Shown: positions 9,309-20,691 of the stretch, piece after piece
How positions within the stretch are numbered: the stretch's first letter is position 1
Layout: every line of letters starts with the position of its first letter
NCBI GenBank assembly: GCA_013285685.1
Contig: JABDHD010000035.1
Coordinates: forward strand, 1 to 36,451
From: Bacteroidota bacterium
GTDB lineage: Bacteria; Bacteroidota; Bacteroidia; Sphingobacteriales; Sphingobacteriaceae
DNA length: 36,451 nt
Direction of reading: 5' to 3'
Program-made: the position numbers and the translations under genes
Notes under the pieces: generated by a model
Told to the model about the DNA's origin: nothing
Database searches by the model: none
Seen by the model: only the letters and a program-made list of their open reading frames with translations

Positions 9309-9881
9309 ATGGAAGCTAAAGAAATCTTAAAAGCGCACGTAGCCAAATTAGCCTTGTTGACTAATGAGCAGTTTGATTATTTTTTTTCGCATTTTAAAAA
9401 AGAGAGTTTTAAGAAAGGACAGGCTGTTATTACCGAAGGCGATCCGGTGGATTGCGAGTACTTCGTGATTTCCGGCTGTTTAAAATCTTTCTATATCAAC
9501 GACGACCTGAAAATGTTTATCCTGCAGTTTGCGATGCCAACCTGGTGGGCTTCCGATTACAATGCATTGTATAGTCATACCAGGGCTTCCATCAACGTGG
9601 ATTGCATTGCCGATGCGGAAGTGCTTTGTCTTACCAATGGCGACAGGGAAAAGCTTTGCAGCGAACTTCACAATGTCGAACATTTTTTTCGGTGGAGGAC
9701 CAATAAGGGATATGTTGCGGCTCAAAAAAGGCTGCTGTCCTTTATGAATAACGATGCGAAACACCGGTACGAAGAACTTTTGAAACTCTACCCTGAACTT
9801 TATAATATGGTTCCTAAAAGCCTGATTGCTGCATACTTAGGTGTTTCCAGAGAAACGCTTAGCCGCCTGTACCATCCCTGA
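9309..9881 (+). CDS. Crp/Fnr family transcriptional regulator
   Basis: 190 residues: a cyclic-nucleotide-binding-like beta roll (about 20-115, with FKKGQAVITEGDPVDCEYFVISGCLKSF), a dimerisation helix and a C-terminal helix-turn-helix. The recognition helix SRETLSRL has R181, E182 and R186 in the same pattern as R180, E181 and R185 of E. coli CRP, which read TGTGA. The classical cAMP-binding cassette is not evident, as is common in Bacteroidota members. Two TGTGA-type sites start within 20 bp of its stop codon, ahead of the YceI operon, and the same pair lies before osmC. The ligand is unknown; control of those promoters is inferred. Confidence 0.88.
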   Translation: MEAKEILKAHVAKLALLTNEQFDYFFSHFKKESFKKGQAVITEGDPVDCEYFVISGCLKSFYINDDLKMFILQFAMPTWWASDYNALYSHTRASINVDCIADAEVLCLTNGDREKLCSELHNVEHFFRWRTNKGYVAAQKRLLSFMNNDAKHRYEELLKLYPELYNMVPKSLIAAYLGVSRETLSRLYHP

Positions 9882-9883
9882 AA

Positions 9884-9966
9884 ATTGATCTGCATCACAT
9901 AAATCATTCCTGCCTTCGAATGTGACGTAGGTCACATGTCCTCCCTAAAAATCCTTCCTTACTTTG
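9884..9966 (+). promoter_or_regulatory. dual CRP-type operator and promoter of the YceI operon
   Basis: Site 1 at 9884-9899 reads, on the minus strand, TGTGATGCAGATCAAT. Site 2 at 9921-9936 is TGTGACGTAGGTCACA, a perfect TGTGA-N6-TCACA. The centres are 37 bp apart. TACTTTG (9960-9966) starts 31.5 bp after the second centre. If transcription starts near 9970, site 2 is centred near -41.5, the class II activator position. The same layout is found at 20155-20237. Confidence 0.75.
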
Positions 9967-9991: not shown

Positions 9992-10513
9992 ATGGGAACA
10001 CAAAAATTTGACATTATAAGCGCTCAAAGCAAGATCGACTGGATAGGCAAAAAGGTGACGGGAGCGCACAATGGCTCCATCGCAATTAAGGATGGTTCTT
10101 TCACGTTGACTGACGGTAAGCTTACCGGTGGTAAATTCATCATCGATACTACAACCATCAAAATACTGGATATAACCGACCCTGCAACTAATGCGCAGTT
10201 TGCCGGTCACCTCGCTTCTGATGATTTCTTCTCTACTGAAAAATACCCGGAAGCGACTTTGGAAATTACCTCGGTTTCCGGCAACCATGTTGCAGGCGAT
10301 CTGACCATTAAAGGGATTACCCATCCTATCGGTTTTGATGTGGCGGTGAATATCAATGGCGGTATATTAATCGCAACCGGCAAGCTGGTAATTGACCGCA
10401 CCAAATATGGAATGAAATTCCGCTCGGGTAATTTTTTTAAGGATTTGGGCGACACATTGATCTACAATGATTTTGAACTGAATATAAGTGTAACCGCTAA
10501 AGCCGCAAATTAA
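9992..10513 (+). CDS. YceI-family lipocalin-like protein
   Basis: 173 residues from the ATG at 9992. An upstream GTG at 9971 in the same frame would begin at the predicted transcription start, so it was not used. The YceI barrel shows as FDIISAQSKIDWIGKKVTGAHNGSIAI, the GGKFIIDTTTIKILD strand pair, HLASDDFFSTEKYPEATLEI and ATGKLVIDRTKYGMKFRSG. YceI proteins bind isoprenoid-type lipids. E. coli YceI is periplasmic, but this one has no signal peptide and should be cytoplasmic. First gene of a six-gene operon behind the dual CRP-type operator. Confidence 0.9.
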   Translation: MGTQKFDIISAQSKIDWIGKKVTGAHNGSIAIKDGSFTLTDGKLTGGKFIIDTTTIKILDITDPATNAQFAGHLASDDFFSTEKYPEATLEITSVSGNHVAGDLTIKGITHPIGFDVAVNINGGILIATGKLVIDRTKYGMKFRSGNFFKDLGDTLIYNDFELNISVTAKAAN

Positions 10514-10759: not shown

Positions 10760-11494
10760 ATGAAACAACAAACAATAATCGTTACCGGTGCTTCATCCGG
10801 CATCGGAAAAGAAATAGCCCGTCATTTTTTAGAAAACGGCGACAACGTGGTGATCAATTCGTCAACGGCTGAAAAATTAGAGCAGGCATACCAGGAACTG
10901 GGCGGCGGCGCAAACCTGGCTGCGGTAGCGGGCAATGTGAGCGATAAAAAAACAGGCGAGAAACTTTTAGCAGCAGCCATTGAAAAATTTGGCTCGGCAG
11001 ACGTCCTGGTGAACAACGCCGGCATATTTGAAACCAGGCCATTCCTCAAAGTGGACGAAGCTTATCTTGACCGCTTTTTAAATACCAACCTGAAAGGCAC
11101 GTACTTTACCACCCAGGCCATCATTCCTCAAATGTTGAAGCAGCAGGGGGGCGTAGTGATCAATATCGGCACGCCCCTTGTAAATCACGGCCTTAGCGGA
11201 GTGCCTATTACGGCACAAATGGCATCAAAAGGTGCAATACATGCGCTTACGATACAGCTGGCAGCAGAGTTTGGTAAAGACAACATCAGGGTGAATACGA
11301 TTGCGCCCGGCACGATCCGAACCCCGATGCATGGTGATAACGCCGATCAAACCGCGGGTTTACATCTGCTGAACCGTGTTGGCGAAGTAGAAGACATCGC
11401 ACAAATGGTTTATACGGTTGCAAAGAGTAACTTTATTAATGGCGCCATTATTAATGTTGACGGCGGCCTGGGGGCCGGGCGCAACCTGAATTAA
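10760..11494 (+). CDS. SDR-like protein with substituted catalytic Ser and Tyr
   Basis: 244 residues with a canonical SDR scaffold: TGASSGIG (9-16), NNAG (85-88), Asn110, Lys157 and the APGTIRTPM segment, ending with DGGLGAG. The catalytic Ser position is Thr138 (INIGT) and the catalytic Tyr position, four before Lys157, is Gln153 (AQMASK). A normal YxxxK is therefore absent, although cofactor-binding motifs are intact. It may be a binding protein, a regulator of a partner SDR, or use different chemistry. One base separates it from the tautomerase gene and one from the next gene. Confidence 0.88.
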   Translation: MKQQTIIVTGASSGIGKEIARHFLENGDNVVINSSTAEKLEQAYQELGGGANLAAVAGNVSDKKTGEKLLAAAIEKFGSADVLVNNAGIFETRPFLKVDEAYLDRFLNTNLKGTYFTTQAIIPQMLKQQGGVVINIGTPLVNHGLSGVPITAQMASKGAIHALTIQLAAEFGKDNIRVNTIAPGTIRTPMHGDNADQTAGLHLLNRVGEVEDIAQMVYTVAKSNFINGAIINVDGGLGAGRNLN

Positions 11495-11495
11495 T

Positions 11496-11948
11496 ATGAA
11501 AACGCTTTTATTGACCGCTTTTTTGTCCTGCACATCGCTGGTATTAAAAGCACAAAATTCAAACAAAATGGAAACTAATCAGCAAGATTCATTGGCAATC
11601 GCACAGACATTGGAAGATTACTATTTCAAAGGTATCTATGAGGGCAATGTTGATACCCTGGGAAACATTTTTAATCCCGGCACCTTACTGTTCGGGGATA
11701 TTAAGGGTCAGCCTTATGCCAAAACGCTCGATCAATACCTTGATGGTGTAAAAAACCGGCAAAGCCCGAAAGATTCAGGCAAACCTTTTAAGGGGACGAT
11801 CATTTCAATTGATGTGGTCAACTCCATCGCGGTTGCTAAAGTACATGTTAAAATGTACGAGTTCAATTATGATGAGTTCCTGTCATTTCACAAGATCGAC
11901 AATCGCTGGTTGATCGTAAATAAAATGATTACCGATGTTTCCGAATAA
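11496..11948 (+). CDS. secreted NTF2-like (lumazine-binding-like) protein
   Basis: 150 residues. A signal peptide of about 20 residues (MKTLLLTAFLSCTSLVLKAQ) is followed by an SnoaL/NTF2-type cone: QTLEDYYFKGIYEGNVDTLGNIFNPGTLLF, then a strand-rich half ending FLSFHKIDNRWLIVNKMI. This resembles the putative lumazine-binding group of Bacteroidota NTF2-like proteins. The fold binds small hydrophobic molecules and has few conserved catalytic residues. It is the only apparently exported member of this operon. Function unknown. Confidence 0.8.
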   Translation: MKTLLLTAFLSCTSLVLKAQNSNKMETNQQDSLAIAQTLEDYYFKGIYEGNVDTLGNIFNPGTLLFGDIKGQPYAKTLDQYLDGVKNRQSPKDSGKPFKGTIISIDVVNSIAVAKVHVKMYEFNYDEFLSFHKIDNRWLIVNKMITDVSE

Positions 11949-11959
11949 ATTTTAGCACG

Positions 11960-13045
11960 ATGTGGTACCAAACAAAAGTATCCGAAATATTGGGCATTGA
12001 ATATCCCATCCTTCAAGGGCCGTTCGGTGGCAACTTGTCGTCTGTTGAGTTGGTTTCAACAGTGTCCAATGCCGGTGGCCTCGGGGGTTGCGGGGCCTAT
12101 ACCTTAAGCCCGGAGGAGATCATCGCAATAGATCAGCAGATCAAAGCATCGACTAATAAGCCTTACAATATTAATCTCTGGGTATTGGATACAGATACGG
12201 TTGACGGTACAGTTTCGGACGAACAGTTTAAACAGGCTCAAACTTTATTCAAGCCTTATTTTGATGAGTTGGGGATAGCCTTGCCAGAGAAACCGGCCCC
12301 GTTCAAATCCCGTTTTGAAAATCAGGTTGAGGTGATCCTGCACCAGAAGCCACCTGTATTCAGCTTTATGTTTGGCGCCCCATCTGCTGATATCCTTGAA
12401 CAATGCCACAGGCTTGGCATTGTTACTGCGGGCGCGGCAACCACGCTTGATGAAGCCATTGTGCTGGAATCGGCCGGAGTTGATCTTATTATTGCTTCAG
12501 GCTTTGAGGCGGGTGGACATCGTCCATCATTCCTGGCGCCGGCGGAATCATCCACCATCGGAACTTTTGTATTGCTACAACTGATTAAAGAAAAGGTAAA
12601 GACGCCGGTTATCGCCGCCGGCGGTATCGCCAACGGCAAAGGTGTTGCAGCGGCGCTGGCGCTTGGCGCGGATGCCGTACAGATCGGTACCGCTTTCCTG
12701 GCCTGCGATGAATCAAATGCTACGACTATCCACAAGCAAATGCTGTCTTCGGATGCGGCTAAATACACTACTTTATCACGGGCTTTCACCGGGCGGCTTG
12801 GCAGGGGAATAACCAGCCGCATTGCGATGGACCTGCTCCATAAAGAAAAAGATTTCCTGCCCTTCCCGCTGCAAACACAGTTCATGTCGCATTTAAGGAA
12901 AGCAGCTATAGAACAGGAGAAATGGGATATGATCTTATTCTGGGGCGGGCAGATCGCACCGGTACTGAAACATACAAAAGCCGCTGAACTGATGAAGTCT
13001 ATAATTAAAGAAACAACGGCATACTTTGACCATCTAAAAGCTTAA
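11960..13045 (+). CDS. nitronate monooxygenase (NPD family)
   Basis: 361 residues, TIM barrel. The FMN-binding and substrate motifs of class I enzymes are present: GIEYPILQGPFGG (11-23), SNAGGLGGCGAY, FMFGAPS, the phosphate-binding ASGFEAGGHR and PVIAAGGIANGKG with ALGADAVQIGTAFL. These flavoenzymes oxidise propionate-3-nitronate or alkyl nitronates; some relatives are NADH:quinone reductases or enoyl reductases. It is fifth in the operon, 11 bp after the NTF2-like gene. The substrate is inferred from family only. Confidence 0.9.
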   Translation: MWYQTKVSEILGIEYPILQGPFGGNLSSVELVSTVSNAGGLGGCGAYTLSPEEIIAIDQQIKASTNKPYNINLWVLDTDTVDGTVSDEQFKQAQTLFKPYFDELGIALPEKPAPFKSRFENQVEVILHQKPPVFSFMFGAPSADILEQCHRLGIVTAGAATTLDEAIVLESAGVDLIIASGFEAGGHRPSFLAPAESSTIGTFVLLQLIKEKVKTPVIAAGGIANGKGVAAALALGADAVQIGTAFLACDESNATTIHKQMLSSDAAKYTTLSRAFTGRLGRGITSRIAMDLLHKEKDFLPFPLQTQFMSHLRKAAIEQEKWDMILFWGGQIAPVLKHTKAAELMKSIIKETTAYFDHLKA

Positions 13046-13070: not shown

Positions 13071-13910
13071 ATGAACACTTCAAAAGTATGGTATGTAACG
13101 GGGGCCTCCCAGGGCCTCGGACTTACCCTCGTAAAAAAGCTGCTTGACCATGGCTACCGCGTTGCTGCAACTTCCCGCGATGCACATGCACTTAGCCTGG
13201 CGGTTGGATTGATAGACCGGGATCGTTTTCTCCCGCTGGCTGTCGACTTAAATAACCCGGATTGTATTGACGAATCCATACAGCAAACGCTGGCGGCATT
13301 CGGACGGATCGATGTGCTTGTTAACAATGCGGGGTACGGAATGACCGGGACAGTAGAAGAAATAGCTGAACAGGATATCAGGAATATTTTTAATGTTAAT
13401 GTGCTGGCAACTATAGCTATGGTAAAAAGTGTGTTGCCGGTAATGCGCAGTCAGAAATCGGGGTATATTATAAATATGGGCTCGGTGGCGGGTTTTGTGG
13501 GCGCTCCGGGCTGGTCGGTTTATTCGGCTACCAAAGCCGCCGCGGCTGCTTTTTCAGAAGTGATCGCGCTGGATGTCAAAGAATTTGGAATCAAAGTTAC
13601 CGTGGTAGAGCCATCAGGGTTCAGGACTGGCTTTCTGACCACGAACTCCCTTGCATTGGTCCCCACCAAAATTGAGGGCTACGAAGCGGTAAAAAATACA
13701 AAGGACCGTTACCTGTCTGCTGACGGACAACAGCCCGGCAACCCGGACCGTGCAGCGGAAATTTTTATGGAATTGGCTGAAAATCCACAGCCACCCATGC
13801 ACCTGTTCCTGGGCAAGGATGCTTATCACAGGGCTTCGGAAAAACTGGCATCTATGACTGTGGAGTTGGAGCAGTGGAAATCAACCACTATCGGTGCAGA
13901 TTTTAAATAA
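13071..13910 (+). CDS. classical SDR oxidoreductase
   Basis: 279 residues: TGASQGLG (10-17), NNAG in DVLVNNAGYGMTG, NMGSVAG for the Ser region and YSATK as the catalytic pair, followed by VVEPSGFRTGF and a long C-terminal extension typical of the 270-280-residue SDR group. Unlike the SDR-like protein two genes upstream, its active site is complete. Last gene of the operon, 25 bp after the nitronate monooxygenase gene; the AraC gene converges on it. Confidence 0.9.
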   Translation: MNTSKVWYVTGASQGLGLTLVKKLLDHGYRVAATSRDAHALSLAVGLIDRDRFLPLAVDLNNPDCIDESIQQTLAAFGRIDVLVNNAGYGMTGTVEEIAEQDIRNIFNVNVLATIAMVKSVLPVMRSQKSGYIINMGSVAGFVGAPGWSVYSATKAAAAAFSEVIALDVKEFGIKVTVVEPSGFRTGFLTTNSLALVPTKIEGYEAVKNTKDRYLSADGQQPGNPDRAAEIFMELAENPQPPMHLFLGKDAYHRASEKLASMTVELEQWKSTTIGADFK

Positions 13911-20154: not shown

Positions 20155-20237
20155 AGTGACCTACATCACATAAATATTGCCCGCCGTTAAATGTGATGCA
20201 GGTCACACGGTCACGCGAATTTTCGTGCCGTACTTTG
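20155..20237 (+). promoter_or_regulatory. dual CRP-type operator and promoter of osmC
   Basis: Site 1 at 20155-20170 reads TGTGATGTAGGTCACT on the minus strand; site 2 at 20192-20207 is TGTGATGCAGGTCACA. The centres are 37 bp apart and TACTTTG (20231-20237) starts 31.5 bp after the second centre. Distances are identical to those at 9884-9966. The flanking ATCACATAAAT is also shared. Confidence 0.75.
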
Positions 20238-20271: not shown

Positions 20272-20691
20272 ATGAAACGTACAGCAAAAGCTCATTGGAA
20301 TGGCAGCCTTAAAGAAGGTAAAGGAGAAATATCTTCTCAAAGCACCGTCCTTAACCAAACACCCTATTCGTTTAAAACCCGGTTCGAGTCGGGTATCGGT
20401 ACCAATCCCGAAGAACTGATAGCCTCGGCACATGCAGGTTGTTTTACCATGTCGGTAAGTGCAGCCCTCAATCAAGCCGGCTTTATAGCCAACGATTTGA
20501 ATACCGAAGCCATTCTCGATGTGGATTTGGCTAACCTTAAGATCACGGGTATTCATTTGGATTTGAAAGCCTCATTGATCGACGGTGTCTCCGCCGAAGC
20601 GTTCCAGGAAATTGCAGAGGGCGCCAAAGCTAATTGTATTGTATCCAAAGCGCTTAACGTGCCCATCACTTTAAGTGTTTCCTACCAATAA
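20272..20691 (+). CDS. osmC: OsmC-type peroxiredoxin
   Basis: 139 residues. Catalytic cysteines are seen in [13 protein letters not shown] (about 60-72) and [11 protein letters not shown] (about 118-128), with the substrate-side [17 protein letters not shown] motif. OsmC reduces organic hydroperoxides and fatty-acid peroxides through a Cys pair, with electrons from lipoyl proteins in studied members. It stands alone behind a dual CRP-type promoter that is a near copy of the YceI operon promoter, tying the two units together. Confidence 0.95.

Follow-up and report, generated by a model that had tools for sequence, protein, structure and literature searches.

Escherichia coli CRP recognizes the consensus TGTGA-N6-TCACA, with a central TA, through the residues R-E-x-x-x-R, and its cAMP pocket carries a GEL...R(S/T)A cassette, while FNR carries an N-terminal cysteine cluster. 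The -33 promoter element is TTG. The spacing of tandem CRP and FNR sites in E. coli is reportedly the subject of earlier papers. According to the available text of one study, class I activation by CRP in E. coli shows a strong 10.5-bp periodicity (PMC6301791). The nearest precedent that we found for the promoters described here is E. coli ogt, where, as far as the accessible part of the report goes, tandem NarL positions at -44.5, -67.5 and -77.5 all work, and NarL at -44.5 and the alpha C-terminal domain occupy opposite faces of the DNA, which its authors call an unusual class I arrangement (PMC7419079). The likeness is that of two activator dimers about three turns apart; the difference is that NarL is a response regulator (PMC7419079). 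In Flavobacterium psychrophilum, the available portion of a start-mapping study places the motif TAnnTTTG at -12 to -5, together with a second motif, TAnnTTGY, at the same place with TA and TTG one base closer (PMC9723704). Among the matches listed in our literature search, which left subscription journals mostly outside, we found no description of a regulator-YceI operon or of half-turn tandem Crp/Fnr sites.

We analysed a window of 36,451 nucleotides from a member of the Sphingobacteriaceae, in which a preliminary description had proposed that the YceI and osmC promoters share one architecture of paired CRP-type sites. Direct reading of the forward strand showed that the YceI promoter carries an upstream (partner) site at 9884..9899 (ATTGATCTGCATCACA) and a proximal site at 9921..9936 (TGTGACGTAGGTCACA), with centres 37 bp apart, followed by a TACTTTG box at 9960..9966 whose TTTG starts 34.5 bp past the proximal centre. 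The osmC promoter carries its upstream site at 20155..20170 (AGTGACCTACATCACA) and its proximal site at 20192..20207 (TGTGATGCAGGTCACA), also 37 bp centre to centre, and its TACTTTG box at 20231..20237. In both promoters TACTTTG starts (9960 and 20231) 31.5 bp past the centre of the second site. Every distance in the preliminary description was exact at both promoters, and the common architecture that it claimed is borne out by these distances and by a register kept in relatives. Its TGTGA-N6-TCA(CA) sites stand as a type, but the left half of the upstream YceI site is TTGA, not TGTGA, and this site has 8 of 10 consensus bases; the three others are TGTGA- or AGTGA-like, and this fourth is weaker. 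Taken singly, sites were no commoner in the window than chance predicts (10 matches with no more than 2 mismatches, 11.0 expected from shuffles); it is the pairing that is unusual. Scanning the organism's own assembly (4.29 Mb, 71% complete) for the paired pattern returned two exact pairs, namely the two window promoters, with no place at 1-2 mismatches and six at 3 (reversed control, two places). The perfect TGTGAN6TCACA was present at the two proximal sites only (control, 0).

We assessed conservation in 100 genomes, and found the 37-bp pair at no more than one mismatch in 20 of them, the own genome and 19 of 60 from the same genus (reversed control, one genome); none of the 39 genomes of other families had it. 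Twenty stretches were taken, covering 21 pair places outside the own genome. At 15 of the 21 places the pair lies between a regulator orthologue and a YceI-led operon that continues with SDR, SnoaL-like, NMO-like and often second SDR genes. At the remaining six, what follows the pair is YceI on its own close to a contig end, osmC (two places), an alpha/beta-hydrolase gene with msrA, an SDR gene and a gene that we take to be PEP-mutase-like. Another sample was picked by regulator similarity only, with the motif not used: 80 named orthologue loci at 76-89% identity to the regulator (the best 80 of 222 relatives), spanning Mucilaginibacter, Pedobacter, Chitinophaga, Flavobacterium, Dyadobacter and others, which with the window gave 81 sequences. 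Sites had to score at least 8 of 10 consensus bases, and spacing was left free up to 150 bp. The results showed a single spike in the TTTG offsets of the 458 strand-wise site matches, with 90 at 34.5 bp; the runner-up was 8.5 bp (16 matches), and all other offsets had at most 7. These 90 phased sites were spread over 80 of the 81 sequences, and in the remaining one, L097, the sites are paired at 37 bp but TTTG starts at 33.5 bp. A profile built without redundancy from 28 paired and 26 single promoters gives AaGTGAtcTa.aTCACATAA at the upstream site and AATGTGATgTAGgTCAC at the proximal site, presumably close to the E. coli CRP consensus. In the regulator tree (L080-L159), Mucilaginibacter, Pedobacter, Chitinophaga and Dyadobacter are intermixed, which suggests that the cassette moves between genera.

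The upstream YceI site begins at 9884, 3 bp past the regulator's stop codon, which ends at 9881, and each palindrome could fold, so we considered whether the palindromes are a terminator or RNA hairpins that end the regulator gene. Among the 80 loci, 48 of 74 YceI promoters start within 80 bp of the regulator's end. However, 26 of 74 lie at least 80 bp from it and 11 of 74 operon-heading sites are more than 900 bp away or on the other strand, osmC is headed as well, and the TTTG distance is fixed. Location largely refutes the hairpin reading, promoters remote from the regulator rule it out, and we give it practically no credence. Because 26 of 74 YceI promoters stand away from the regulator's end, although just the 11 are well separated from it, and osmC and other genes are headed too, we assign the promoter to the operon rather than to the end of the regulator gene.

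The fixed TTTG distance in 90 promoters, with the activator site overlapping the -35/-33 region, argues for a class II position of the proximal site, as had been claimed. A class II promoter should also have no -33 element of its own, and in agreement with this the TTG of such an element, starting 17-27 bp upstream of TTTG, was counted eight times over the 90 promoters. The box itself, TACTTTG, is not the usual one: it is one base shorter than TAnnTTTG, and TA stands in the canonical register in 1 of the 90 phased promoters (TA-N2-TTTG) and one base closer in 28 (TA-N1-TTTG), with a pyrimidine after TTTG in 83. In 879 upstream regions of the loci, TA-N2-TTTG was enriched (187 sense versus 102 antisense), and TA-N1-TTTG was not (86 sense versus 92 antisense). 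The TA-n-TTTG at 9960-9966 and 20231-20237 fits the TAnnTTGY motif as given in the accessible text on F. psychrophilum (PMC9723704). There are two explanations: an off-consensus core promoter that depends on its activator, or the use of a holoenzyme of the TAnnTTGY type. A transcription start 41.5 bp after site 2 had been assumed; applying the F. psychrophilum register, as far as the available text gives it, would place the proximal centre at about -42.5 or -43.5 (PMC9723704). Overall, the predicted start would put this centre at about -41.5 to -43.5.

We next describe the partner sites. Of the 90 phased sites, 58 have an upstream partner and 32 have none; 15 of these 32 are in Flavobacterium records, and the rest are in Dyadobacter, Chitinophaga, Pedobacter, Mucilaginibacter and other records. 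Partner distances were 37 bp (43 cases), 38 bp (5), 36 bp (1), 27 bp (5), 26 bp (2) and 47 bp (2), and no partner occurred at any other distance from 17 to 89 bp, save one 42-bp match overlapping a 37-bp partner. The free-spacing search of the 81 sequences gave the same distances, 37 bp (42), 38 (5), 36 (2, one of them, L086, unrelated to the operon), 27 (5), 26 (2) and 47 (2), with further repeats at 49 bp (5), 86 (5), 44 (3), 81 (2) and 135 (2) and remaining distances once each. At 49 and 44 bp the proximal site is matched with a weak site of its own promoter that lies downstream of the box, and the 86- and 81-bp rows are, by arithmetic, 37 plus 49 or 44. In the reversed half-site control no distance occurred more than twice. 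Partners at 26-27, 36-38 and 47 bp from the proximal centre are about 2.5, 3.5 and 4.5 turns away, which is not the phase of a canonical class III helper. These results add a new point: the partners move by whole helical turns, yet their phase relative to the proximal site remains offset by about half a turn.

The spacing was also examined with a free gap across the family, with centres 22-52 bp apart, requiring the TTTG register but, of the upstream site, no more than its inner half. Of 399 family genomes, 60 matched, with 66 matches between them (reversed control, one), at 36 bp (4), 37 bp (49), 38 bp (7), 47 bp (2) and 48 bp (1), and once each at 22, 29 and 52 bp. Twenty of the 66 were checked in wider stretches, and 19 had a full upstream site (at least 8 of 10); the 22-bp case scored 5 of 10. 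The upstream site of the 52-bp case scored 7 of 10 and had no TGA, and that of the 48-bp case scored 9 of 10. One pair, L253 4296, goes against the spacing rule: it is full (10 of 10) and its TTTG is in register, yet its spacing is 29 bp. No regulator homologue lies within its 9-kb stretch, and this pair may belong to another Crp/Fnr protein. A 38-bp pair around position 5000 of L199 (G122) has TACTTCG in register instead of TTTG. In the genus of Chitinophaga sp. S165, 16 of 79 genomes matched, some of which overlap with the 80 similarity-chosen loci. Promoters with a full upstream site there had spacings of 26 bp (2), 27 (6), 37 (5) and 38 (1); the remaining matches were a nested 28-bp match in one such promoter and two at 48 bp without an upstream site. 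A class-wide search of 395 genomes returned only the window's own pairs and one match at 45 bp (G584).

The distinct distances 26, 27, 36, 37, 38, 47 and 48 bp cluster near the half turn at 10.5 bp per turn, with a Rayleigh p of 0.0025, of 0.004 with 29 bp added and of 0.026 for the shifts 26, 27, 47 and 48 alone, these values not being independent. On the regulator tree of 81 sequences, built by a quick method with 35 of 78 inner branches open and used for spacing-change counts only, two changes suffice for the 2.5-turn class and a minimum of 7 for all four spacing classes, which leaves few independent shifts. This count took one state per locus, assigned L097 manually to 37 and disregarded the 42-bp overlap.

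The candidate reader of these sites is the forward-strand gene at 9309..9881, encoding a Crp/Fnr-family regulator of 190 aa with the recognition helix RETLSR at residues 181-186. Membership of the Crp/Fnr superfamily calls for a cNMP-binding-type N-terminal domain and a C-terminal helix-turn-helix; PF00027 matched at 36.8 bits against a cut-off of 27.5, and the structure model (pLDDT 81.9, lower around residues 131-150) matched CRP/FNR folds in Foldseek. The regulator scored 19.9 bits against the cut-off of 266 of the NCBIfam CRP equivalog NF008732 and 25.2 against 228 for the NCBIfam FNR model. Since it falls below both curated cut-offs, cAMP or oxygen control should not be assumed. Its pocket stretch, AMPTWWASDY, has by eye no GEL...R(S/T)A cassette, and its first cysteine is residue 49, which does not fit an FNR cysteine cluster. 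All 81 aligned orthologues keep Cys99 and Cys117, 75 keep Cys57 and 73 keep Cys107; in a homologue of 66% identity (L252) the position of Cys99 is Ser. The best PDB sequence match (E 1.7e-24), which is also the best Foldseek match, is 3dn7, a solved cyclic-nucleotide-binding regulatory protein of Cytophaga hutchinsonii (Bacteroidota) with 29% identity, for which the PDB listing gives neither function nor operators.

The preliminary description read the RETLSR helix as pointing to TGTGA. In 25 of 26 examined homologues at 44% identity or more the helix is RETLSR (once RESLSR), the remaining one failing to align, and it was found in 0 of 9 examined homologues at 35% identity or less, whose helices are of PEF-, PES-, PQF- or TEY-type. 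This conservation favours the regulator as the reader, but the helix is not private to the regulator's family. Of the 22 PF00027 loci that we read in G025, a complete relative, three carry RET[LV]SR, namely the orthologue and two distant paralogues with RETLSR or RETVSR, one of them 30% identical to the regulator. RETLSR alone is therefore weak evidence, and another protein could read the same sites. Regulator paralogues of 44-45% identity (G030:C6:36721, G013:C1:6547173, G021:C4:136494) are followed by TCACA-N7-TGTGAN6TCA, a different close arrangement.

We therefore weighed whether another Crp/Fnr paralogue reads the sites while the adjoining regulator does something else. The three RET[LV]SR proteins of G025 favour this, as do 3 of 20 examined paired stretches that have no regulator homologue, the other 17 having one at 61-82% identity. 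We nevertheless regard it as improbable: the regulator is kept in 20 of 20 pair-bearing genomes, the own genome, 71% complete, has a single RETLSR protein, the regulator, among 8 PF00027 matches, and 48 of the 74 YceI promoters start less than 80 bp from where the regulator gene ends. The regulator search enumerated all 50 genomes that carry it. Among the own and 60 same-genus genomes, 20 have pair and regulator, none has the pair without the regulator, 38 have neither, and three have the regulator without a 37-bp pair (two with 47 bp, one with a single site); Fisher's test gave 2.8e-13 with kinship ignored, and this co-occurrence is confounded, with regulator, operon and promoter moving as a group. 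Taken with the phased site at 80 of 81 loci and the helix of close homologues, it indicates that the RETLSR-type regulator is likely to read the sites, as the preliminary description had supposed.

The genes behind these promoters suggest a small candidate regulon, and the regulator gene has a series of predicted stress genes next to it. The forward-strand YceI-domain gene (9992..10513; PF04264 above cut-off) is followed on the same strand by an SDR gene (10760-11494; family match), a gene for a small protein, presumably SnoaL-like (11496-11948), a FabK/nitronate-monooxygenase-like gene (11960-13045; family match below the FabK cut-off) that we take to be a nitronate monooxygenase (NMO), and what is presumably a second SDR gene (13071-13910), labelled in part from similarity. 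These genes, from YceI to 13910, probably form one operon, given a gene order common to relatives. The osmC gene (20272..20691, forward strand) encodes an OsmC-family peroxiredoxin (TIGR03562 above cut-off; PF02566). Phased promoters in relatives also head osmC, NMO-like, SnoaL-like and SDR genes; MsrA is among the predicted targets there, as are, by our assumption, aldo/keto reductase and DJ-1-like genes. At L100, L267, L268, L269 and L271, next to regulator homologues, this paired operator also stands before operons whose genes we take to be DJ-1/PfpI, with pirin presumably also at L100. The target genes (OsmC, YceI, MsrA and others) and the two invariant cysteines suggest an oxidant, thiol or electrophile as the signal, which is a guess. 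A genome-wide CRP-like regulon was rejected: TGTGAN6TCAC-N27-TTTG had only 0-3 matches per genome over 61 genomes (reversed control, 5 in total). It matched in 31 of the 61, comprising 22 of 23 with the regulator and 9 of 38 same-genus genomes without it, so some single-site matches with TTTG come from chance or other regulators.

From the TTTG distance of 34.5 bp, the 26-27/36-38/47 spacing rule, conservation, co-occurrence and a common recognition helix, we consider it probable that the YceI operon and osmC form a small regulon switched on by this regulator, a class II activator accompanied by a second dimer upstream on the far side of the DNA. The RETLSR-type regulator (9309-9881) would bind both sites of each pair as separate dimers; the proximal dimer, in the class II position beside RNA polymerase, would activate rather than repress both targets; and the partner dimer, displaced by about half a helical turn, might contribute to activation by way of the second alpha C-terminal domain of RNA polymerase or of the DNA path. 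This resembles tandem (class III) or class II cAMP-CRP promoters of E. coli in its TGTGA-N6-TCACA sites with central TA, a proximal site near -41.5, a second upstream site and R-E-x-x-x-R, but differs in that the regulator misses the CRP model, the partner is half-integral turns away, the promoter box is that of Bacteroidota and target sites per genome are few. The 'helper' role given to the upstream site is a putative function, and 32 of 90 phased promoters have no partner. Since it is half a turn off the proximal site's face, the upstream dimer would not be a simple in-phase class I helper.

The upstream site might instead repress or tune: from the opposite face, a second dimer could obstruct the alpha C-terminal domain or make the DNA curve away from polymerase. 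Its half-turn offset is the reverse of the in-phase class I arrangement described for E. coli CRP in the available text (PMC6301791), and single-site versions are common (32 of 90). Partners are, however, well conserved: of the 58, 24 score 10 of 10, 29 score 9 and five score 8, the threshold, so that 53 of 58 score 9 or 10, and 47 rows of one 50-row group of the regulator tree have one. Comparable upstream positions also activate at NarL/ogt, according to the accessible part of that report (PMC7419079), and we hold repression or tuning to be rather unlikely. Activation by the upstream dimer could, tentatively, extend to a wider rule, in which Bacteroidota Crp/Fnr activators use an opposite-face tandem of a class II dimer and a second dimer at 2.5, 3.5 or 4.5 turns, which the free alpha C-terminal domain would contact by reaching behind the DNA; we see this as possible, though the odds are against it.

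To our knowledge, few activator promoters have been dissected in Mucilaginibacter, Pedobacter, Chitinophaga and Flavobacterium, and a regulon with operator, promoter register and likely regulator is now proposed for these genera. The natural spacing series of 26/27, 37/38 and 47 bp, whose variants all have the upstream site rotated half a turn away from the expected face, makes the phasing of upstream activators at class II promoters directly testable. If the opposite-face tandem is true, natural selection has run a helical-phasing experiment on this promoter.
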